NCBI GenBank assembly: GCA_905235455.1
Contig: CAJOLL010000010.1
Span: 1-35,166 of the forward strand
From: an uncultured Clostridia bacterium
GTDB lineage: Bacteria; Bacillota; Clostridia; Saccharofermentanales; Saccharofermentanaceae
Direction of reading: 5' to 3'
DNA length: 35,166 bases
Numbering within the stretch: position 1 is the first letter of the stretch; every line of letters begins with the position of its first letter. This document shows positions 11,797-31,844 of the stretch, one piece after another. The notes beneath the pieces were generated by a model. That model was not told the DNA's origin. It did no database searches and saw nothing but the letters and a program-made list of their open reading frames with translations. Made by a program: the position numbers and the translations under genes.

Positions 11797-13254
11797 TCAG
11801 TTCTCCCCCTCTCTAATGATGTATTTAAAGGCATCTTCCGAATACCAGGACTCCTTATACGGGAGCTTGACATGTTCGGCGATCTTCTTGTTAAAGCCCG
11901 GGTTTTCCAGCTGGTCGGCGATCTTATTGCCGAGGAACAGAAGTCCGTCATAGCCCATGGTCGGGCGCTTGCCGTCAAGTACGTGTGTTGTCGGAATGCC
12001 GAGTCTTGACGCCCAATCCGGCATGCCGATAAAAGCATCGGGCTTGAGTTTCTTAACGAGGTTGACCTGCTCAAACGGCTGCATGTTCGCGATATCCACG
12101 ACGAACTCTTTATGGATGCCGTTTAAGTATTCGATATCAACCTGGGCATCGTCATCGTAGGTCGGTGTCTCAAGGCCCACAAGTTCCATGCCGAAATCGT
12201 CGATCAGGGCCGCTGCGGCAAAAGAACGTCCAGTTCCGCCACAGATGAATACTCTTTTTCCCTGCAATCGCTCGCGGAGTTTTTTCACGAGCGGTTCGAT
12301 CCTCTCATGCTCTCTTGCGATAATCTCTTCGACTTCCTGTTCTTTTCCGACGACCTTCGCGATACCTCTGTACCACTTATCGGTATTTCGGATACCGATC
12401 GGCATGACGGTGTGCGAATACGGGATATCATATTCTTCGTAAAGGGTCTTCATGAATTCATCGGCGAAGACCTTACAGATCGAAGTGGAAGCTTCGGCAG
12501 CCGGGATCTTCTTGATCTTTTCGAGTGAACTGTAAAAAGGTATATAGTTTACTTTTGCGTCCAGGAGCCGGAGCATTCTCTCCATCTCTTTCTGGTCGGC
12601 ATAACTGACCGTCGTCGGCGCAAAAAGATTGATCAGTCCTTTTTCTTTCTCCACCTTCTGATGCTTCAGGATATACTTGTTGATCGAGATAAATGCCGCA
12701 TCGAAGCCGGATGCACAGATCTTCGACTTAAAGCCTTCGCAGTGGATCGGGATGATCAGGGGATCCGGATATTCGCTCTGAAGATCCGAGCAGATCGCAT
12801 CGATATCGTCACCGATGATGCCGGAAGCACAGGAAGCAAATACGAAGATGAGCTTCGGGGAATATCTTTCAACGGCCATCTTCACCGATTCACGGAGCTT
12901 CTTTTCTCCGCCGAAAACGACACTTTTCTGATCAAGGTTCGACACGATCAGACGCGGGTTCTTGATGTTTCTGATCCCTCTGTGGATCTGTCCGACACGG
13001 TACATATCGATTGCCATGATCGCACATCCCACACAGCCTTGCGGAGAATGGGAAATAAAGACAGCATCTTCCAGAGACATAAGTGCTGCAAGGCTGTTGA
13101 TCTGCTGGCACTGAAGGCCCTGTGCGAAACTTCTGTCGGCTCTTTTCAGGCAGCCTTTCTTAAAGTCCTCGCTGACTTCCTTTCCGGTCGTGCCAAGGTC
13201 ATTGACTCTTCCCGGTTTACTCTCTCTGACACCGGAATATGTCACTTTCGCCAT
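11797..13254 (-). CDS. nitrogenase component 1-like alpha subunit, pair B (NifD-like, full cofactor ligands)
   Basis: 485 residues. P-cluster-type cysteines: C49 (GLQCQQ), C74 (SHSPQGCVGC) and C142 (ASCASGIIGDD), with spacing close to NifD C62/C88/C154. By eye-alignment the cofactor ligands are both conserved: C260 in STSICKVF, upstream of EEYDIPY, corresponds to NifD C275, and H424 in GIPTTHVLDG, twelve residues before YDG, corresponds to H442. So this subunit looks catalytic and able to hold a NifB-derived cluster. The HCEGFKSKICASGFDAA segment occurs also in pair A. Start: ATG 13254 with AAGGA upstream; the preceding gap contains two tandem hairpins. TGA at 11799-11797 is one base from the nifK-like B start. 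Confidence 0.92.
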   Translation of the reverse strand: MAKVTYSGVRESKPGRVNDLGTTGKEVSEDFKKGCLKRADRSFAQGLQCQQINSLAALMSLEDAVFISHSPQGCVGCAIMAIDMYRVGQIHRGIRNIKNPRLIVSNLDQKSVVFGGEKKLRESVKMAVERYSPKLIFVFASCASGIIGDDIDAICSDLQSEYPDPLIIPIHCEGFKSKICASGFDAAFISINKYILKHQKVEKEKGLINLFAPTTVSYADQKEMERMLRLLDAKVNYIPFYSSLEKIKKIPAAEASTSICKVFADEFMKTLYEEYDIPYSHTVMPIGIRNTDKWYRGIAKVVGKEQEVEEIIAREHERIEPLVKKLRERLQGKRVFICGGTGRSFAAAALIDDFGMELVGLETPTYDDDAQVDIEYLNGIHKEFVVDIANMQPFEQVNLVKKLKPDAFIGMPDWASRLGIPTTHVLDGKRPTMGYDGLLFLGNKIADQLENPGFNKKIAEHVKLPYKESWYSEDAFKYIIREGEN

Positions 13255-13336: not shown

Positions 13337-13804
13337 TTATTCTTCTTCTGAAAGCTTCTGCTGCCGGAGCGATTGGCGGTTATCGATCTTATAATAGTAG
13401 GAAGAGATCTTTTCGAGTGCATCTTCCACACTGACTTCGATATCAAATACCGAGATGGCTTTCTTTTCAAACTGTTTCTGTGCCTGAAATCCGATCTTCT
13501 TGCAGACGACGGCACGACAGTCTTCGATCAGTGCGACCTTACCGAGCACTTCGGTTCCGCCGCCGCAGCCGTGGCCGTTCCCGCCGCAGCCGGAACCGTT
13601 GCCGCAGGACCCGCCGGTCCCGCAAGAGGAAGCCTCAGCTGTGGCAGGTGCTTTTTCCGCGGTGTCAGACGAATCCACATGACGGATCTCCAGAAACTCC
13701 AGATCCTGTCCATCGACACGGTATATATAGAAACGGTCCGTCTCACCGAACTTCAGGTCAACATTGATTCCGTTGGATGAACCAAACGCGATATTGTATG
13801 CCAT
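13337..13804 (-). CDS. NifX/NifB-C-terminal-type cofactor-binding protein with Cys/Gly loop
   Basis: 155 residues from ATG 13804 (AGGAG 9 nt upstream; ATG 13810 has only 3 nt). The N-terminal half (MAYNIAFGSSNG...FYIYRVDGQDLEFLEIR) and C-terminal half (GKVALIEDCRAVVCKKIG...AISVFDIEVSVEDAL) are one dinitrogenase iron-molybdenum-cofactor-biosynthesis domain, as in NifX/NafY and the NifB C terminus, which carry cofactor clusters. Between them, residues 61-83 form a loop of Cys, Gly and His: C61, C67, C73, H78, C80, with spacing of six or seven residues. Further cysteines are C96 and C101. The loop is unusual and may bind metal or a cluster. The gene sits between the two nifDK pairs (79 bp after nifK-like A). 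Confidence 0.88.
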   Translation of the reverse strand: MAYNIAFGSSNGINVDLKFGETDRFYIYRVDGQDLEFLEIRHVDSSDTAEKAPATAEASSCGTGGSCGNGSGCGGNGHGCGGGTEVLGKVALIEDCRAVVCKKIGFQAQKQFEKKAISVFDIEVSVEDALEKISSYYYKIDNRQSLRQQKLSEEE

Positions 13805-13883
13805 ATCCATGGACTCCTTTCTTTCGTTTAAGAATATACCGAGCGCACCTCTCTGCACCTGGCATATCCCCACGCAACAGTTC

Positions 13884-15182
13884 TCAGTTAAAACGGGAAA
13901 CTGCTATCGTGTAGATATCTTCGATCAGGCGGATGCCGCCCTCGTATCCGGCATAGAAATTGTCGAATACGACCTTATCCTGTACCGGCCAGGAGATGTT
14001 GAGGAAGTTGCCCTTCAGATTCTCCGTGACTTCTTTTTCGTAGTAGCCGCCGAGTACGAGCGGATAACCGTGGTAGTCGTGGCCCTTGATCTCTTCGTGG
14101 ATCTTGTAACCGTCTGTCTCAAAAGAAACTTCCGCCTCGATACCGAAGTTCAGCTTCTTAAACTCTTCTGCGATGCGGTCACGATGGTTCTTCGGCGTAT
14201 CATCGACGACGAACTGCTTTGCCGGGATCAGTCCGAGGTCATTGACCAGGAACTTCGTCACGGCAAGCGAATACTGTGCATCTGCAACGACCGTGAACTG
14301 CTTGTTGATGACACGGTTCTCGAGGAACAGGTCCGCATAACGGCTGATGAGGTAGTAATAGTAATCCTCATGCTCCTTGATGACGGCTTCTACCTTCTCT
14401 TCCGGAACACCGGCGAACTTACCGACTTCCCTGAGGAACTTACTGGTCTCTGTTGCGCCGATCGGAAGATTCGGATAGTGAAGATACGGCGTGCCGAACT
14501 TCTTTTCCATCTTCTTGACGTTATTCAAGCCGACCCACGGGGAAACGAGAAGATTGAACTCTGCTTCCGGGATCTTGTTAATGTTTTCGATCCCGCGCTT
14601 ATAGCCGAAGATCGTATTCGGGGTAAGGCCCAGCTCAGCGATGAGCTTTTCGAGCTGACGGAGGTTACCGAGCCAGAACAGATCCTGATACGGAACATCT
14701 GCCCAGATATTAATCAGACCCTTCTGCTTCTTATCGGACTTCTTCAGATACTGGTCGACGATAGCATCCACTACCTGCTCGTGACCCTTATAGTTGTTGC
14801 CCTTAAAGCCTGCTGTCGGTGCGTAGACGACCGGCTTTTCCGCATCTTCGTATCTGGAAACGACTTCTCCGGAGTCATCACCGACGATCTCCGGGATACA
14901 ACCCGTGAGTACCACATAGAGGTCAGCATCAATGACCTTCAGTGCATTTTCGATCGTAGAATCCAGTTTCTTCACGCCACCGAAAACAACGTCTTTTTCG
15001 TTGATGCTGGTGCACGGAAAAATATTCGGGGAAAAGTATCCGGAGCTTCCTGTGGATTCCGAAAGTTTCTGTGCGCAGCCGGGGCCACTGTGAAGGATCG
15101 GGAGAGCGCGGTCGATCGCCTGAACGGTCTGCATCGCCCCCAGTGCGCATTTATATCTTTGCTTATCTAATAACTTCGCCAT
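13884..15182 (-). CDS. nitrogenase component 1-like beta subunit, pair A (NifK-like)
   Basis: 432 residues. Its ATG overlaps the TAA of nifD-like A as TAATG, with GGAGG 8 nt upstream, a tight translational coupling expected for 1:1 subunits. P-cluster-type cysteines: C12 (YKCALGAM), C36 (HSGPGCAQ) and C95 (LTGCIPEIVGDD), spacing 24 and 59 against 25 and 58 in NifK. Retention of all three argues against a NifN-type scaffold protein, which has lost part of them. It is a paralogue of nifK-like B (shared HSGPGC, VLTGC..IVGDD or IIGDD, ATETSKF/ATDTSKF, YAGYEGG/YAGYRGS). Function inferred as electron-relay subunit of pair A. Confidence 0.9.
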   Translation of the reverse strand: MAKLLDKQRYKCALGAMQTVQAIDRALPILHSGPGCAQKLSESTGSSGYFSPNIFPCTSINEKDVVFGGVKKLDSTIENALKVIDADLYVVLTGCIPEIVGDDSGEVVSRYEDAEKPVVYAPTAGFKGNNYKGHEQVVDAIVDQYLKKSDKKQKGLINIWADVPYQDLFWLGNLRQLEKLIAELGLTPNTIFGYKRGIENINKIPEAEFNLLVSPWVGLNNVKKMEKKFGTPYLHYPNLPIGATETSKFLREVGKFAGVPEEKVEAVIKEHEDYYYYLISRYADLFLENRVINKQFTVVADAQYSLAVTKFLVNDLGLIPAKQFVVDDTPKNHRDRIAEEFKKLNFGIEAEVSFETDGYKIHEEIKGHDYHGYPLVLGGYYEKEVTENLKGNFLNISWPVQDKVVFDNFYAGYEGGIRLIEDIYTIAVSRFN

Positions 15183-16648
15183 TATTTCGTTTCCTCCAGG
15201 AACTTATCAACATTCTGCAGGTACCACCAGTCTGTATAAGGAAGCTTGGTGCGCTTGGCCAGATTTTCTTCGAAGCTTCTGTTATTGATCGCATCGAGGA
15301 TCGTCTTGGCAAATTCCAGCGTGTGCTTATAGCCGAAGATCATGTACTCATCTGCTACATAGATCGCAGGGGTTCCGTTCTTGATCGCCCATACGGTAGA
15401 ACCCGGGTGACGGGAAAGATACATATCCGGCTGGTACTTATGCAATATGTTCATGACCTCGAAGTTCTGCTGATCGGCAACACTTGCTTCAAAGTCGATA
15501 TCGTTATCCAGAAGGTACTTCATGGACGGCGGTACATCGCCGTTTTCGTACTTCTTATCGTAATGCCATGCCAGTGCCCAGACGACTTTGATACCGAGTT
15601 CATTGAGAACACGGGAAACCTCAAATGTGTAGCCCGGACCCATACCGAGAACGGCGGTTTTTCCTTCGAGCTGCTTCTTCACTTCTTCGATCTGCGGCAG
15701 ATAGATCGCACGCTGCTCTTCGATATACTTTTCGATCGGCTCGGATCTTCCCGTGACTTTACCGATCTCACGGAGCCATGTCTCAAAACCGACAATACCG
15801 CACTGGTTGATCGTTCTTACATAAGGGACGCCGTACTTTTCTTCCAATGCATTTCCGAGATAGTTACCGAGCGTTCCGCATATGCATGTCGTCGCCAGGC
15901 TTTCGGAAATATGGGAGAGCTCTTCTACTGTGGAATTGCAGTAGAGGAATACCGGATCGAGATCGAAGTTTTTAAACATCTCGATGATCTCCGGACGGGC
16001 GCTCTCGAAGAAGTTCTTGAAGTTGATCTTATTCGTCTTCACGCCTTCTCTCGGGGGCTGAACGATCGACTGCAGTACCGCGTGGTCGGAAATGTCAAAG
16101 CCGGTTGCCCAGATACGGGACTTAAAGCCTTCGCAGTGAACCGCTGCTATCGGGACACCCACTTCCTCTCTGACTTCATCGACGATGCTGTCGATATCCT
16201 CACCGATGATACCTGTCGCGCAGGAGGAAGATACAAAGATCGCCTTCGGTGAATATCTCTTGTTGACCTCGAGGATAACGTTACGAAGTGCATTGGTGGA
16301 TCCGAAGATCGTGTCATTCTCGTTCATATCGGTTCCGACATAGATCGTATCACTGGTAACGCCGCGCTTTTTTGACATAACTTTCGACATGTAATAAGCG
16401 CCTGCTGCTGCTACGGAGCAACCGGCCGGGCCATGATGGATCAGGGCAACATCACGGATGCCGCAGAGCTGGCCGAGTGCGCACGAAGAAAGACATGTAC
16501 TGGACTGCGAGAAGCAGCGGGAACATCCTTTCAATGTTCCGCATTCACTCTGGGTCGCTAAGTCCTTGAGAGTTCCTACATAACCTGTGATCGAACCGAT
16601 ACGGTTTTCTCTGGTGGCAACATTCGAATTGGAAAGATTAATAGCCAT
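15182..16648 (-). CDS. nitrogenase component 1-like alpha subunit, pair A (NifD-like, His ligand not conserved)
   Basis: 488 residues from ATG 16648 (MAINLSNSN; AAGGA about 11 nt upstream); the frame is open further upstream but into cysK2. P-cluster candidates are C52 or C56, C77 (HHGPAGC) and C143 (SSSCATGIIGED); C77 to C143 is 66 residues, exactly as C88 to C154 in NifD. C257 (CICGTLGNYL...EEKYGVPY) is at the distance from EEKYG that NifD C275 has. The position of NifD H442 is occupied by Tyr, Ile or Ala (GTPAIYVADEY), not His. The N terminus has a cluster of cysteines: C36, C42, C45, C52, C56, C62. So pair A could bind a different cluster, or act as a scaffold in the manner of NifE, which also lacks the His. 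Confidence 0.9.
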   Translation of the reverse strand: MAINLSNSNVATRENRIGSITGYVGTLKDLATQSECGTLKGCSRCFSQSSTCLSSCALGQLCGIRDVALIHHGPAGCSVAAAGAYYMSKVMSKKRGVTSDTIYVGTDMNENDTIFGSTNALRNVILEVNKRYSPKAIFVSSSCATGIIGEDIDSIVDEVREEVGVPIAAVHCEGFKSRIWATGFDISDHAVLQSIVQPPREGVKTNKINFKNFFESARPEIIEMFKNFDLDPVFLYCNSTVEELSHISESLATTCICGTLGNYLGNALEEKYGVPYVRTINQCGIVGFETWLREIGKVTGRSEPIEKYIEEQRAIYLPQIEEVKKQLEGKTAVLGMGPGYTFEVSRVLNELGIKVVWALAWHYDKKYENGDVPPSMKYLLDNDIDFEASVADQQNFEVMNILHKYQPDMYLSRHPGSTVWAIKNGTPAIYVADEYMIFGYKHTLEFAKTILDAINNRSFEENLAKRTKLPYTDWWYLQNVDKFLEETK

Positions 16649-16667
16649 GTGTTTCGTTTTCCTTTTC

Positions 16668-17684
16668 TTAGAAAGCAAGATTTTCTTCCAGTTCCGGACG
16701 GATATTCTGAATATCCTCGGACAGGTAACGCTCACCGTTATCCGGCAGCAGCGGTACGATCAGTTTTCCTGCATTCTCTTCTTTCTGTGCAAGCTTAATG
16801 GCAACTGCCAGGGAAGCACCTGCAGAAGCACCGACGAAGATACCTTCGTACTTGGCAAGCAGATGGATCGCACGGAGTGTCTCAGCATAAGAGATGAAGT
16901 TATATTCATCGGCAAGATCTTCGTTGAAGTTCGTAGGAGCCATCGGTGTCAGGCCGTCGTCATTATGCACCTGATGGATACCGTGAAAACCGCCGTCCTC
17001 CGCACCTTGTACCTTCGTGTTAACAACGTCTTCCGGATCCGGCTGTGTAATCACTACTTTCACGTTCGGGTTCTTTTCCTTCAGGAACTTACTTACGCCG
17101 TGTGTGGATCCGCCTGTGCCGACACCGCCGACGAAGATGTCTACTTTTCCGTCGGTATCTTCCCAGATTTCCGGACCGGTGTACTTGTAGTGTGCATTTA
17201 TGTTATCCGGATTATCGAGTTGTTTTGTGGCGAACGGATGCTCGACACCTTTTTCCATGTATTCGAGTACATCGGCAAAAGCGGCGATACCTTTTTCGAA
17301 AACACCTGCGATCAGTTCCTGCGGAACCTCTGCGATCTCTGCCTGATATGCCTGCAGGAGCTTCCGTCTTTCGATGGATACACCGTTCTGAAGACCGATC
17401 TTGAATTTGTATCCCTTAGCTGCAGCAAAGGATGCCATGGCAACACCGGTATTACCGGATGTGAACTCGACAAGGGTTGTCTTATCCGGGCTGATCTCGC
17501 CGCGCTTCTCTGCGGCCTCGATGATCTCCAGAGCCATTCTGTCCTTATGGGATCCTGCCGGATTGAAGTATTCGAGTTTACCGGCGATTCTGCCCTTCAG
17601 ACCGAGCTTTTCCTCAAGTCTCTTAAATTCTACGATCGGGGTATGTCCGACCAGTTCTGTGATTGAATTGTAAATTTTTCCCAT
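16668..17684 (-). CDS. divergent cysteine synthase-family PLP enzyme inside the nitrogenase-like cluster
   Basis: 338 residues, fold type II PLP family of CysK/cystathionine beta-synthase. The Schiff-base lysine is K47 (NPAGSHKDRMA), and the substrate loop EFTSGNTGVAMA and phosphate-binding GVGTGGSTHG are present. It differs from the canonical CysK encoded at 19837-20772 at active-site surroundings: SHKDR for SVKDR, GASAG for GISSG, LPDNGERY for LPDSGDRY, and an insertion around 218-258 with GAEDGGFHGIHQVHNDDG. So it probably takes another sulfur donor or acceptor, or does beta-elimination. AGGAGG is 9 nt upstream. Its place between nifH-like and nifD-like A, 19 bp before the latter, suggests a step directly linked to the reductase product. 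Confidence 0.9.
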   Translation of the reverse strand: MGKIYNSITELVGHTPIVEFKRLEEKLGLKGRIAGKLEYFNPAGSHKDRMALEIIEAAEKRGEISPDKTTLVEFTSGNTGVAMASFAAAKGYKFKIGLQNGVSIERRKLLQAYQAEIAEVPQELIAGVFEKGIAAFADVLEYMEKGVEHPFATKQLDNPDNINAHYKYTGPEIWEDTDGKVDIFVGGVGTGGSTHGVSKFLKEKNPNVKVVITQPDPEDVVNTKVQGAEDGGFHGIHQVHNDDGLTPMAPTNFNEDLADEYNFISYAETLRAIHLLAKYEGIFVGASAGASLAVAIKLAQKEENAGKLIVPLLPDNGERYLSEDIQNIRPELEENLAF

Positions 17685-17731: not shown

Positions 17732-18586
<855 letters not shown>

Positions 18587-18597
18587 TTATCCTTCTT

Positions 18598-18954
18598 TCA
18601 AATAAATAATTCATTCACTTGTTCATATTTGACCAGTTTGTCGATCGATTCGGAGATGATCCCCGGGATCTCATAACAACTGATACCCTTGCTTTCTAAG
18701 ACCGCCCTGGCGCCGTTTCCGACCCGGCTTACCAAAAGATGTGTGCAGTCCGAAAGTTTTTCGGCGTTTTCGAAAAGTCTTTTTTCATCGTGATCGCCCA
18801 TCTCACAGACGGGAGGAAGATTTCTGACTTCCAGAAGTTTCAGTTCATCGCCTGATACTTCATATATGTAAAAAGCTCTGGCCTTTCCGAAATGGTTATT
18901 CACTACGATCCCGTCGGAACTGGCCACCGCGATCCGGCAGATTCTATCAGCCAT
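18598..18954 (-). CDS. NifX-like iron-sulfur/cofactor carrier protein
   Basis: 118 residues, a single dinitrogenase iron-molybdenum cofactor biosynthesis domain (starts ICRIAVASSDG and has FYIYEVSGDELKLLEVR, then GARAVLESKGISCYEI). Proteins of this kind hold NifB-cofactor or cluster intermediates on the way to component 1; in many organisms the same domain is fused to the C terminus of NifB. Here it is separate but starts 8 bp inside the nifB-like gene (ATGGCTGA overlap), in line with coupled synthesis. Cysteines C6, C50, C70 and C92 are not in a known cluster motif. A second, Cys-loop-bearing paralogue is at 13337-13804. Confidence 0.9.
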   Translation of the reverse strand: MADRICRIAVASSDGIVVNNHFGKARAFYIYEVSGDELKLLEVRNLPPVCEMGDHDEKRLFENAEKLSDCTHLLVSRVGNGARAVLESKGISCYEIPGIISESIDKLVKYEQVNELFI

Positions 18955-19819
18955 GTGAGAAAGTCTCCTTTACGCCGAGTCTTCTCTGATAGATCTGATC
19001 ACCGAATTCCGATTTTCCCGGGACTCCTACCGCGTCGGCTCGGCAGTGCTGGCAGTGACGGAAGACATCGATATATTTTTCGGCTTTCCGTCTTGCTTCG
19101 TCGATCTGTGGGCAGGTCGGTGCTTTTACATCCTTGAGTTCATGCTGCGGGATCAAAGGGATGATATTGTAGATCTTCGCGCCTGCTTCTTTTACCGCTT
19201 TTGCGATCTCTTCGATATGGTCTCCGTTGATCTCCGGAACAAGCACTGTATTGACTTTGACCGTGATCCCTGCCGCGGCGACTTTTCTTATCCCCGCCAG
19301 CTGGTTTTCGATCAGGATCTTCGCGCCTTCGACGCCCTCGATCTTTTCGCCGTGATAGATGATGTAGGCATTCAGCTTATTCTCTATTTCCGGATCGACT
19401 GCATTTACGGTCACTGTCAAAGAATCGATCCCGATATCGATCACGTCCTGTGCTCTTTCATTCAGAAGAAGTCCGTTCGTGCTCATGCACTTGATGAGCT
19501 GCGGGAATTTTTCTTTCACGATCTTGAAAGTTTCCAGCGCGTAATCGGTCGCCAGAGTGTCGCCCGGACCTGCGATCCCGGCCACTTTGATGTCAGGGCA
19601 GATCTTCAGTGCTTTTTCCAAAAGCTCTTCGCATTCTGCAGGATTTAACACCTTCGATGTCACTCCCGGCCGTTCTTCGACGTCGTTGATGGCGCGGTCA
19701 CAGAAGCGGCATGCAATATTGCATCCCGGACTGACAGGAAGATGGATCCTTCCTGCATTATTCTTATGACCGCCGAAGCATGGATGGGAGTTCTGCAGAT
19801 CCTCGTATGTGTTTCTCAT
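18947..19819 (-). CDS. nifB: NifB-like radical SAM cofactor maturase
   Basis: 290 residues from ATG 19819 (CCGGAG 5 nt upstream; an in-frame GTG lies two codons earlier). NifB fuses two [4Fe-4S] clusters with a carbide and a sulfide into NifB-co, the precursor of all nitrogenase cofactors. NifB hallmarks are all present: HPCFGGHKNNAGRIHLPV at the N terminus (C14), the radical SAM CNIACRFC triad (C33, C37, C40), and the C-terminal CQHCRADAVG (C256, C259) that holds the auxiliary substrate clusters. It lacks the fused NifX domain, which is the next gene. Presence of NifB implies that at least one of the DK pairs uses a NifB-derived cluster. Gap to cysK is 17 bp. Confidence 0.93.
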   Translation of the reverse strand: MRNTYEDLQNSHPCFGGHKNNAGRIHLPVSPGCNIACRFCDRAINDVEERPGVTSKVLNPAECEELLEKALKICPDIKVAGIAGPGDTLATDYALETFKIVKEKFPQLIKCMSTNGLLLNERAQDVIDIGIDSLTVTVNAVDPEIENKLNAYIIYHGEKIEGVEGAKILIENQLAGIRKVAAAGITVKVNTVLVPEINGDHIEEIAKAVKEAGAKIYNIIPLIPQHELKDVKAPTCPQIDEARRKAEKYIDVFRHCQHCRADAVGVPGKSEFGDQIYQRRLGVKETFSHG

Positions 19820-19836
19820 CTGCACTCCGGTGCTGT

Positions 19837-20772
19837 TCAGTCTTTGAACAGCGGAGTGGAGAGGTAACGGTCGCCGGAGTCAGGCAGAAGTGCAACGATC
19901 ACTTTACCCTTATTTTCCGGTCTCTTTGCAAGGATCTCTGCGCCCTTAAGAGCAGCACCGGAAGAAATACCGACCAGAATGCCCTCGGAGATGGCGAATG
20001 CTTTTCCTTCTGCAAAGGCATCTTCGTTTTCAATCGCGATGATCTCGTCATAAATTTTCGTATTAAGAACTTCCGGAACGAAGCCTGCGCCGATTCCCTG
20101 GATCTTATGTGCGCCCGGCTTACCGGTGGAAAGAACTGCGCTTGTTGCAGGCTCTATGGCAACAATCTTGATGTTCGGGTTCTGGGACTTTAAGTACTCA
20201 CCGACACCTGTGATGGTTCCGCCGGTACCTACGCCTGCGACAAAAATATCTACTTTACCGTCGGTCTGTTTCCAGATCTCCGGGCCTGTTGTTTCCTTAT
20301 GCGCCTTCGGGTTTGCCGGGTTAACAAACTGGCCGAGGATTACGGATCCTTCGATCTCTTTATTCAGTTCTTCCGCCTTGGCGATCGCGCCCTTCATGCC
20401 CTTCGCACCCTCTGTCAGAACAAGCTCTGCGCCATAAGCATGAAGAAGGTTTCTTCTTTCAACGCTCATCGTATCCGGAAGTGTCAGGATGGCCTTATAG
20501 CCTTTGGCTGCAGCCACTGCTGCAAGACCGATACCGGTGTTGCCGGATGTAGGTTCGATAATTGTGGCTCCCGGTTTAAGAAGACCTTTATCCTCGGCAT
20601 CCTCGATCATGGCCAGTGCGATCCTGTCTTTTACGGATCCGGCCGGATTCAGATATTCCAGTTTACCAAGAACAGTCGCCTGCGTGATCTCTCTTTTTTT
20701 AGAATACGCATTCAGCTGAAGAAGCGGTGTATTACCGATTAATTCCAATGCACTTTGCTTAATCTCACTCAT
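19837..20772 (-). CDS. cysK: cysteine synthase A (O-acetylserine sulfhydrylase)
   Basis: 311 residues. It makes cysteine from O-acetylserine and sulfide. Canonical features: K48 in [35 protein letters not shown] and [11 protein letters not shown]. Shine-Dalgarno AGGAGG 8 nt before the ATG. It is the first structural gene after a Cys-rich leader peptide and attenuator, and heads the operon that contains the nitrogenase-like genes; cysE at 27360-28292 supplies its substrate. This ties the reductase to sulfide assimilation. Confidence 0.97.
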
Positions 20773-20792: not shown

Positions 20793-20857
20793 AAAAAAAT
20801 CAGTCGCTACCCTTTTGGTAACAACCGCATCAAAAAACCGTTGTTCTCAACAAAAGG
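20793..20857 (-). promoter_or_regulatory. transcription attenuator: terminator and alternative antiterminator before cysK
   Basis: Terminator: minus-strand CGGTTGTTACC (20827-20817), loop AAAAG, GGTAGCGACTG (20811-20801), an 11-bp stem with three wobbles, then A and seven T (20799-20793). Antiterminator: CCTTTTG (20857-20851) with CAAAAGG (20817-20811) and AACAAC (20845-20840) with GTTGTT (20825-20820), which use up the 5' arm, the loop and one base of the 3' arm of the terminator. A small GTTG-AGAA-CAAC hairpin (20851-20840) would block the antiterminator. The first antiterminator arm starts 8 nt after the leader-peptide stop, so a ribosome at the stop would cover it and one held at Cys codons would not. 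Confidence 0.8.
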
Positions 20858-20865
20858 TGTTTTCG

Positions 20866-20946
20866 TTATTTTCCGTTGCAACATGTCGAACACATACAAC
20901 ACATGCCACACATCTGCATGAATTTTCGATCCATCATATTCTTCAT
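20866..20946 (-). CDS. Cys/Met-rich leader peptide, 26 aa
   Basis: ATG 20946, TAA 20868-20866. The peptide starts MKNMMDRKFMQ and continues MCGMCCMCSTCCNGK, with six Cys (13, 16, 17, 19, 22, 23) and seven Met including the initiator. A GGGGG Shine-Dalgarno lies 8 nt before the ATG. The Cys codons occupy the last half, just before the terminator/antiterminator region (20793-20857). This is the classical layout of amino-acid biosynthetic leader peptides (trp, his, leu), here for cysteine, upstream of cysK and the nitrogenase-like genes. Low charged Cys-tRNA would stall the ribosome and favour read-through. Confidence 0.85.
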   Translation of the reverse strand: MKNMMDRKFMQMCGMCCMCSTCCNGK

Positions 20947-20999
20947 GTTTGCTACCCCCTTTTTGACGGTTTTTCTGGTGCTTTTCTCAAGCTGAAATA

Positions 21000-21055
21000 A
21001 TAGTAACACTAGCCGAAGGCTTTGAAAAATCGCTATTAATTATCGTCTGTGATAA
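21000..21055 (-). promoter_or_regulatory. promoter and activator box of the cysK-nif operon
   Basis: Plus-strand reading: ATAGTA (-10 TACTAT, 21000-21005), N16, TTGAAAAAT (21022-21030), N9, TTATC-N6-GATAA (21040-21055). The same elements at identical spacing occur before the importer operon (26346-26401) and the Cys/Met operon (30857-30912). The -35 (TTTCAA) is poor, as expected for an activated promoter, and the interrupted TTATC/GATAA palindrome fits a LysR-type site. The box begins 8 bp after the stop of the ATPase gene. Confidence 0.65.
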
Positions 21056-26449: not shown

Positions 26450-27352
26450 TCACTCCTTATATTTCAATAATTCATCGATATACCGCTGGCCGATCTCGCT
26501 TAGCTTGTGATTGGCGCGGACGATGTATCCGATTGTCAGCGGATCCTCTTCTTTCAGTTTGATCGTCACGAAATCCCGCTTGAGCGCGTAGCTGTCGGTC
26601 ATGACACCTGTGCCGATCGAATAGCCGTTCATGGCCGCCATAAGTTCCGCCGAAGTTGCTCGGTCGTTGGTCTTAATGAGTTTTTCAAAAGCATAGTCGC
26701 CGAGTGCTTCCTCCGTCAGGTAGAAATCATTCTCGCTGCTCTGGTCAAAAGAGATACACGGATAGTCTTTCAGGTCTTCGAGCGAAAGAGCCCGTGCAGA
26801 AGCAAGAGGGTGGCTTTTCCATACATAAACGAACGTCTCTCTCGTGATCAGCGGGGTAAACTCCAGCTGGTATTCGCGCAAGAGTTTTTTCATTACCTTT
26901 TCGTTCGTTTTGGAAAAAGCAACGACGCCGACTTCACTGTCGAGGCTTCTGACATTCGAGAGCACCTCGTCCGTCCGCGTCTCATGCACGGCAAACGTGT
27001 ACTTACCGTTATCGTATTCTTTGACGACATTGATAAAAGCATGCACCGCAAACACATAGTGCTGCATCGACACGCTGAAATGCTTCTTGTCCAGATCCCG
27101 GTCGAGATAGCGGTCTTCGATGAGCTCATACTGGCTGACGGCTTCCTTCGCATATGTGAGAAATTCCTTTCCCGGATCTGTCAGGCGGATACCCTTGTTC
27201 GTACGCTCGAAAAGCTGGATGTTCAGTTCTTCTTCGAGTTCGCGGATCGTCGAGGACAGCGCCGGCTGAGATACGAACAGGCGGCTGGCTGCCTCGCGGA
27301 AAGACTTGGAATTTGCGATCGCAATTACATATTTCAGCTGAAGAATCGTCAT
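26450..27352 (-). CDS. LysR-type transcriptional regulator 1
   Basis: 300 residues. N-terminal winged helix (LQLKYVIAIANSKSFREAASRLFVSQPALSSTIRELEEEL) and a LysR substrate-binding domain. It has the same ILQLKYVIA/LNQLKYVIA start and overall similarity to the second regulator at 30933-31844, so they are paralogues of a CmbR/CysB-like type. It is the last gene of the Cys/Met operon, 7 bp after cysE, and directly upstream of the importer promoter; it probably activates the promoters with the TTATC-N6-GATAA box in response to O-acetylserine or another sulfur signal (inference). Confidence 0.92.
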   Translation of the reverse strand: MTILQLKYVIAIANSKSFREAASRLFVSQPALSSTIRELEEELNIQLFERTNKGIRLTDPGKEFLTYAKEAVSQYELIEDRYLDRDLDKKHFSVSMQHYVFAVHAFINVVKEYDNGKYTFAVHETRTDEVLSNVRSLDSEVGVVAFSKTNEKVMKKLLREYQLEFTPLITRETFVYVWKSHPLASARALSLEDLKDYPCISFDQSSENDFYLTEEALGDYAFEKLIKTNDRATSAELMAAMNGYSIGTGVMTDSYALKRDFVTIKLKEEDPLTIGYIVRANHKLSEIGQRYIDELLKYKE

Positions 27353-30932: not shown

Positions 30933-31844
30933 CTACTCCAGCACGTTCTCTCTATATTTTGCAAGCTCGGTGACATATTGCTCGGCAAGCTCACTTAGTA
31001 CGGAATTCTTTCTCGAGACATATCCGATTGTCATGGTCTCATCCGTGTCGAGCTTTACCGCACAGTAATCCGTGCCGTTAAGATCTTCGCAGATGATGCC
31101 GGAACAAAGCGTATATCCGTTGATGCCGACCATCAGGTTCAGAAGCGTCGCACGGTCATTGGCCCGGACGATCCTCTTATAGTCATAGGTACTGAGAACT
31201 TCTTCCGCATAGTAGAAAGAATTGTGTTCGCCTTGCGCAAATACCAGACACGGATACTCATCCAGATCCTGAAGAGTAATGAGTTTTTTCTTTGAAAGCG
31301 GATTGTTCTTACTCATATACGCATAGATCCCGCACTCGAAAAGCGGCGTGAACTGAAGTCCCGCCTCATTAAAGATCTTCGTCATGACGCTTCGATTAAA
31401 GTCGTTGACATAGAGAACGCCGATCTCGCTTCTCTGGTTTTTGACGTTCTCGATGACCTCATGTGTCTTCGTCTCATGGATCTCAAACTCGTATTCATCC
31501 ATACCGTACTGACGGATGACCTCGACAAAAGCATTGACCGCGAAGGTATAATGCTGCATGGAGACATGGAATGTATGCTTGACATCGGCACCCGAGACGA
31601 ACTTCCCTTCGAGGATGTCATACTGCTCGATCACGGACTTCGCATATCCCAGAAATTCACTGCCCTTGACGGTCAGCGAGATGCCGCTCTTGGTACGGAG
31701 GAAGATGTCGAAGCCGACCTCTTCCTCGAGGGATTTCAGTGCAGCCGTCAGCGCCGGCTGCGAGATAAAGAGTTTCTTCGCGGCCTCATTGATCGAATTT
31801 TCTTCCGATAGCGCGATTACGTATTTTAACTGGTTGAGTGTCAT
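30933..31844 (-). CDS. LysR-type transcriptional regulator 2
   Basis: 303 residues. Winged-helix N terminus (LNQLKYVIALSEENSINEAAKKLFISQPALTAALKSLEEEV) and LysR effector domain, a close paralogue of the protein at 26450-27352. It lies 6 bp after iscU, with no clear Shine-Dalgarno, so translation is probably coupled. Divergence of the two paralogues in the effector domain suggests two related signals. It directly precedes the activated promoter of the Cys/Met operon. Confidence 0.92.
   Translation of the reverse strand: MTLNQLKYVIALSEENSINEAAKKLFISQPALTAALKSLEEEVGFDIFLRTKSGISLTVKGSEFLGYAKSVIEQYDILEGKFVSGADVKHTFHVSMQHYTFAVNAFVEVIRQYGMDEYEFEIHETKTHEVIENVKNQRSEIGVLYVNDFNRSVMTKIFNEAGLQFTPLFECGIYAYMSKNNPLSKKKLITLQDLDEYPCLVFAQGEHNSFYYAEEVLSTYDYKRIVRANDRATLLNLMVGINGYTLCSGIICEDLNGTDYCAVKLDTDETMTIGYVSRKNSVLSELAEQYVTELAKYRENVLE

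Follow-up and report, generated by a model that had tools for sequence, protein, structure and literature searches.

A Cys-codon leader with the anatomy of a transcription attenuator in front of cysK and a nitrogenase-like operon of Clostridia

Amino-acid genes of the Firmicutes are usually controlled by T-boxes or riboswitches, and regular leader-peptide attenuators have, to our knowledge, rarely been reported in this phylum. In the window analysed here, i.e., a whole stretch of 35,166 nucleotides from an uncultured Clostridia bacterium (contig CAJOLL010000010.1), a short Cys-rich ORF followed by a terminator is found upstream of cysK and a set of nitrogenase-like genes, which raises the question of how the transcription of these genes is controlled. 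The leader is very probably a ribosome-mediated transcription attenuator that senses charged tRNA-Cys, located behind a conserved and presumably LysR-controlled promoter.

Leader and operon in the window

All the elements of the attenuator lie on the minus strand of the window and are given below, together with those of the promoter, in the direction of transcription.

21040..21055, minus strand: operator-like inverted repeat TTATCACAGACGATAA, presumed LysR-type site, recognised from sequence
21000..21028, minus strand: likely promoter TTTTCA-17 nt-TACTAT, recognised from sequence, its spacing kept in relatives
20955..20960, minus strand: Shine-Dalgarno AGGGGG of the leader ORF, 8 nt 5' of the ATG, recognised from sequence
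20866..20946, minus strand: leader peptide ORF MKNMMDRKFMQMCGMCCMCSTCCNGK, 26 codons and TAA, with 6 Cys (5 TGT, 1 TGC) and 7 Met
20840..20857, minus strand: antiterminator 5' arm, composed of CCTTTTG (20857-20851) and AACAAC (20845-20840)
20841..20853, minus strand: small hairpin TTGTT-GAG-AACAA, which could block the antiterminator, recognised from sequence
20811..20825, minus strand: antiterminator 3' side, composed of GTTGTT (20825-20820) and CAAAAGG (20817-20811), overlapping the terminator
20801..20827, minus strand: intrinsic terminator stem-loop, 11 bp with a loop of 5
20793..20799, minus strand: T7 run of the terminator, after one A, recognised from sequence

The sequence-only reading of this locus had described a 26-aa peptide with six Cys codons, an 8-nt gap between its end and the antiterminator arm, and an 11-bp stem plus T7 that is mutually exclusive with the antiterminator. 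The peptide is real (20946-20866 on the minus strand, preceded by a Shine-Dalgarno sequence), and the gap, which is 8 nt from the stop codon to the arm, the stem with its T run and the exclusive pairing are all present. In the antiterminator, CCTTTTG pairs with CAAAAGG, and AACAAC with GTTGTT. A sequence AGGAGG is found between the terminator and the cysK start at 20772, and a scan with a consensus promoter returned a weak site overlapping TTTTCA-17-TACTAT.

RNA folding of 20793-20946, proposed earlier as a check, bears out a structure on the minus strand only: the leader RNA is more stable than its shuffles (z -2.81), while the plus strand at the same coordinates has no structure beyond shuffles (z 0.65). 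When the upstream region of the window was shuffled 5,000 times, an ORF with a Shine-Dalgarno sequence and at least 6 Cys codons never appeared, and one with at least 4 appeared seven times.

The genes located downstream of the leader are the following.

19837..20772, minus strand: cysK, cysteine synthase A, first gene of the operon (NCBIfam TIGR01139, 446 bits, cutoff 351)
18947..19825, minus strand: NifB/MarB-like radical SAM protein
18598..18954, minus strand: NifX-like protein
17732..18580, minus strand: NifH-like Fe protein
16668..17684, minus strand: second PLP enzyme of the cysteine synthase superfamily, divergent, below all equivalog cutoffs
15182..16735, minus strand: MarD-like nitrogenase-like subunit, likely start 16645
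13884..15182, minus strand: MarK/NifK-like subunit
13337..13873, minus strand: Cys/Gly-rich NifX/NafY-like protein (weak NifB/NifX matches)
11797..13254, minus strand: NifE/D-like scaffold or second component-1 subunit (Pfam PF00148)

The best PDB match of the D subunit is MarD (9fmg, 295 bits), whereas the best true NifD reaches 123 bits, and His413 of this subunit (numbered from the 16645 start) aligns with MarD His429, described as a cluster ligand on a MarD-specific loop (PMC12552129). Since the D subunit is closest to MarD and its His413 is aligned with this ligand, the operon is, judged by sequence, methylthio-alkane-reductase (Mar)-like and not that of a true nitrogenase, and its enzyme should release methanethiol. 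The second PLP enzyme sits between the NifH-like and the MarD-like genes.

Conservation of the leader among relatives

A DNA search within the family retrieved 13 leaders of the same type in the genus of the window and 2 in the sister genus, all of which keep 5-6 Cys codons and the terminator, and an equivalent Shine-Dalgarno sequence is present in every aligned leader. Covariation, proposed earlier as a check, was analysed in an alignment of 16 window-type leaders, and changes on both sides of a pair were found in the two structures. In the terminator, 95.5% of the cells are paired and there are nine two-sided changes, a result that none of 500 shuffles equalled; in the antiterminator, 86% are paired and four pairs have changed on both sides, with a covariation score that was reached in 2 of 500 shuffles.

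Within the genus of the window, leader codons 1-22 are 94% identical at degenerate codons of the same amino acid, compared with 64% in cysK, and the Cys codons, mostly TGT, are 97% identical, compared with 72% for the two-fold codons of cysK. Taking into account that such identity exceeds what a simple counter of Cys codons would need, it points to a constraint on the RNA or on codon identity beyond Cys counting. The leader ORF at 20866-20946 and its counterparts L003-L015 are nearly frozen in nucleotides, MKNMMDRK included.

For a wider survey, 80 named loci carrying the D subunit were collected; they come from Lachnospiraceae, further rumen Clostridia and Bacteroidales, and 77 upstream regions were scanned. 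An ORF led by a Shine-Dalgarno sequence and containing at least 4 Cys codons precedes cysK in 20 of these 77 operons, as against 7 of 7,700 shuffles, and a terminator is present in all 20. Several of the leader peptides cannot be aligned with that of the window except at their Cys clusters, e.g., MNKRLMCRGMCMRMLMCRCSRHKT and MKTNNMVVNKRNNNCCCCHTVYINTVCFSCV, and show an identical layout. Thus, the Cys codons, the terminator and the exclusive antiterminator recur in many relatives within changed surrounding sequence. Complete leaders lacking the Cys codons or the alternative pairing, which the sequence-only reading had named as evidence against attenuation, were looked for among the relatives and none was found. 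The statistical excess of these elements, the conservation of their layout and the compensating changes are matters of observation, and the same kind of switch would precede cysteine genes in dozens of relatives among the Clostridia of gut and rumen.

The predicted antiterminator arm begins between -19 and +9 nt from the stop codon in 28 of 28 leaders (in the so-called type-2 leaders it overlaps the end of the ORF), so that it would be hidden under a ribosome terminating there and left exposed by one that has stalled earlier, on the Cys codons. When arms and terminators of 20 diverse leaders were permuted, the cognate partners had a mean energy of -14.2 kcal/mol, compared with -10.6 kcal/mol for the permuted ones (sd 0.67), a difference found in 0 of 20,000 permutations; for the nine leaders that are not of the window's type the figure was 48 of 20,000. 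Within the leader type of the window alone, no significance was reached (2,822 of 20,000); these leaders are probably too similar to one another for the test.

Mechanism and alternative explanations

In the attenuators of the trp and his operons of E. coli, stalling at regulatory codons selects the antiterminator over the terminator. The clostridial leader would follow the same stall logic, with Cys as its regulatory codon instead of Trp or His. Thus, RNA polymerase would start at the promoter with the LysR-type operator, about 45-50 nt before the leader ORF, and a trailing ribosome would translate the 26-codon peptide. When Cys-tRNA is scarce, this ribosome would stall on the Cys codons (20910-20878), so that the arm (20857-20840) stays available for pairing with the emerging 5' half and loop of the terminator; once the antiterminator had formed, transcription would run into cysK and the nitrogenase-like operon. 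With ample cysteine, the ribosome would reach the stop codon and cover the start of the arm, the terminator would form and transcription would end at about 20793.

From the anatomy of the leader we infer the direction of this regulation, with read-through upon starvation, and stalling, co-transcriptional timing and the size of the effect are put forward in the same conditional sense. Folding of nascent RNA, in which the 3' arm of the terminator has not yet emerged, agrees with this mechanism: with the ribosome at the last Cys codon the mean energy is -13.6 kcal/mol, and with the ribosome at the stop codon it is -6.3 kcal/mol, the terminators themselves having -13.8. These folds were used instead of equilibrium probabilities, which did not separate stalled from released ribosomes: at equilibrium, the complete leader favours the terminator at nearly every ribosome position and shows no switch, and two leaders (L016 and L017) go opposite to expectation. 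Therefore, the order of events during transcription would be essential, as in known attenuators.

The earlier claim that all three elements of classical attenuation are present stands for the ORF and for the mutually exclusive terminator and antiterminator, and is weaker for the small blocking hairpin. The small hairpin that would block the antiterminator exists in the window; its sequence, however, is not kept in window-type relatives in the leader alignment, and for this reason its role as a third element is tentative at best. No conserved 1:2 pause hairpin was found in the leader type of the window either, a difference from the E. coli trp and his leaders. In type-2 leaders (L045, L053, L089-L109), an inverted repeat ACTGTA..TACGGT lies right 3' of the Cys codons, and could possibly act as a pause hairpin for RNA polymerase.

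An alternative that deserves some weight, although we regard it as unlikely, is a general sensor of sulfur amino acids in which both Met and Cys codons stall the ribosome. In the leader type of the window, Met and Cys codons occur at similar frequencies (seven and six, respectively, among the 26 codons of its own leader), type-1 leaders retain the Met-Cys repeat, and a Mar-like operon would fit the use of methanethiol for methionine. By contrast, Cys runs (CCCC, CCCCC, CCCQAVC) are kept in the leaders of type 2 and of genus g163, and little or no additional Met lies near them; the Met codons at positions 4-5 lie at too great a distance upstream to work alone.

The high conservation of a Cys-rich peptide within the genus would also be expected if the ORF encoded a working small peptide that binds metals or thiols, in which case the terminator would be incidental or would serve to end the peptide gene's own transcript. 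This is very improbable, taking into account that the peptides of related operons have only Cys clusters in common, that the conservation within the genus is at the nucleotide level, that every leader has its antiterminator arm either after the stop codon or overlapping it, and that the leader peptide of the window has no Pfam or NCBIfam match. Equally little credence is given to a stall element of the ermC/TnaC type, sensing a nascent peptide or an antibiotic and with incidental Cys codons: the MKNMMDRK start and the MC repeats are strongly kept in genus g1, but the leader types have no peptide motif in common except Cys, and the genes that follow them are cysteine genes and not resistance genes. 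Both peptide-based explanations were set aside.

Least plausible of all is a leader in which a protein, a tRNA or another RNA sensor (T-box, S-box) governs the terminator and the ORF is a coincidence, since Cys ORFs are far above chance and no T-box, S-box or other relevant Rfam covariance model matches the leader at gathering or lax thresholds, although a terminator-like hairpin lacking a Cys ORF does occur in four relatives (L048, L054, L055 and L067). In these four, a hairpin GCAGTTGCC..GGTAACTGC and a T-run lie between the promoter and cysK, and may represent a reduced attenuator or a sensor of another kind.

Promoter, distribution and known systems

Of 57 relatives, 32 have a TTATC-GATAA box together with the promoter before cysK, as against 49 of 2,850 shuffles, and this arrangement is kept both with and without a Cys leader. 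At 21040-21055 and in relatives L033-L085, the repeat takes the form TTATCAC-N4-GATAA, with TTTTCAAA and a -10 box between it and cysK; it is probably the operator of one of the LysR genes of the cluster. In the window, LysR regulators are encoded at 26450-27352 and 30933-31844. In many relatives the gene comes directly after the promoter, with no leader. Since the box and the promoter persist irrespective of the leader, the attenuator looks like a cassette that has been acquired or dropped downstream of a regulated promoter, which presumably depends on LysR. It had been predicted that the reductase is made only when cysteine is short; the dependence on cysteine agrees with the attenuator, but "only" overstates the case, given the conserved LysR-like operator and promoter located upstream.

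A profile of the type-2 leader peptides, searched against 391 clostridial genomes, returned mostly noise and one real new case (L144). At this locus of G351 (L144/L172), one Cys leader precedes cysK and another precedes a GST-like gene (glutathionyl-hydroquinone reductase type), after which a predicted cystine-type ABC transporter operon follows. The genus is Lachnospiraceae-like and its Cys-run leaders are unrelated in sequence; it contains 16 further cysK leaders, with a CCCQ core, and transporter leaders in 11 genomes, with runs such as MCCCCKC and variable flanks. A terminator-like hairpin accompanies all the transporter leaders and most of the cysK leaders. This second Cys-leader attenuator, at the transporter operon, is seen in L144/L172 and in L265-L278. 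Among 60 cysK upstream regions of other clostridial genomes, no convincing Cys-rich leader was found. The device is thus tied to cysteine genes and confined to some lineages, because two cysteine operons carry leaders and these 60 cysK genes do not. A scan of the window genome with GGAG..ATG..TGYTGY gave chance-like matches only, and is uninformative on other leaders, as the pattern cannot match a leader with an AGGGGG Shine-Dalgarno sequence.

Cysteine leaders had been expected to be new in this setting. No open-access paper or Rfam family describing them in Clostridia was found, and the clostridial switch seems not to have been described before, but leaders of this kind are known elsewhere. 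Cys-codon leaders were predicted in Actinobacteria, without a conserved terminator (Seliverstov et al. 2005, PMC1262725). In mycobacteria, leaderless polycysteine sORFs are reported to be cysteine-responsive (Canestrari et al. 2020, 10.1111/mmi.14498, cited in PMC9094748); they share with the clostridial leader a short Cys-rich ORF before cysteine or sulfur genes and a cysteine-responsive attenuation, but differ in being leaderless and in having no conserved terminator hairpin, whereas the clostridial leader has a Shine-Dalgarno sequence, an intrinsic terminator and an antiterminator. The leader of the window falls outside the mycobacterial type on account of its Shine-Dalgarno sequence and its terminator.

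Ribosome-mediated attenuation has also been predicted for the uORFC-8-2 motif upstream of cysS in Rhodobacterales (PMC8632094). Compared by its description only, this motif is similar in its uORF with tandem Cys codons, its stems and its terminal U run, and differs in belonging to Alphaproteobacteria, in preceding a tRNA synthetase gene and in having the Cys codons inside the first stem. Within the Firmicutes, a His leader peptide of hisS*/hisZ was predicted in bacilli and reported as the first regular case outside Proteobacteria and Actinobacteria (Naville and Gautheret 2010, PMC2965389); it is likewise a regular leader-peptide attenuator, although it senses His and precedes other genes.

Taken jointly, these data incline us, with moderate confidence, to propose that a cysteine regulon (cysK, the cystine-type transporter and the nitrogenase-like C-S reductase operon) is controlled in Lachnospiraceae and neighbouring Clostridia by Cys-codon attenuators. 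These would be cassettes inserted between a LysR promoter and its gene and removable from there, would have arisen or diverged several times, and would take the role of T-box, S-box or CymR in other Firmicutes. If so, the phylum would have here its first cysteine regulon that senses translation and relies on intrinsic terminators. The leaders would couple the charging of Cys-tRNA to a nitrogenase-like enzyme with which gut and rumen bacteria scavenge sulfur, and cysteine supply could therefore set the activity of that enzyme. Since several carriers of Cys leaders are named, non-metagenomic strains, including [Clostridium] polysaccharolyticum DSM 1801, Ruminococcaceae KHP2 and Lachnospiraceae 3-1, the prediction is directly testable.

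In five Bacteroidales MAGs (L102, L103, L105, L107 and L108) the D subunit is 86-87% identical, and either the operon has moved between phyla, which is probable, or these cases are binning errors.
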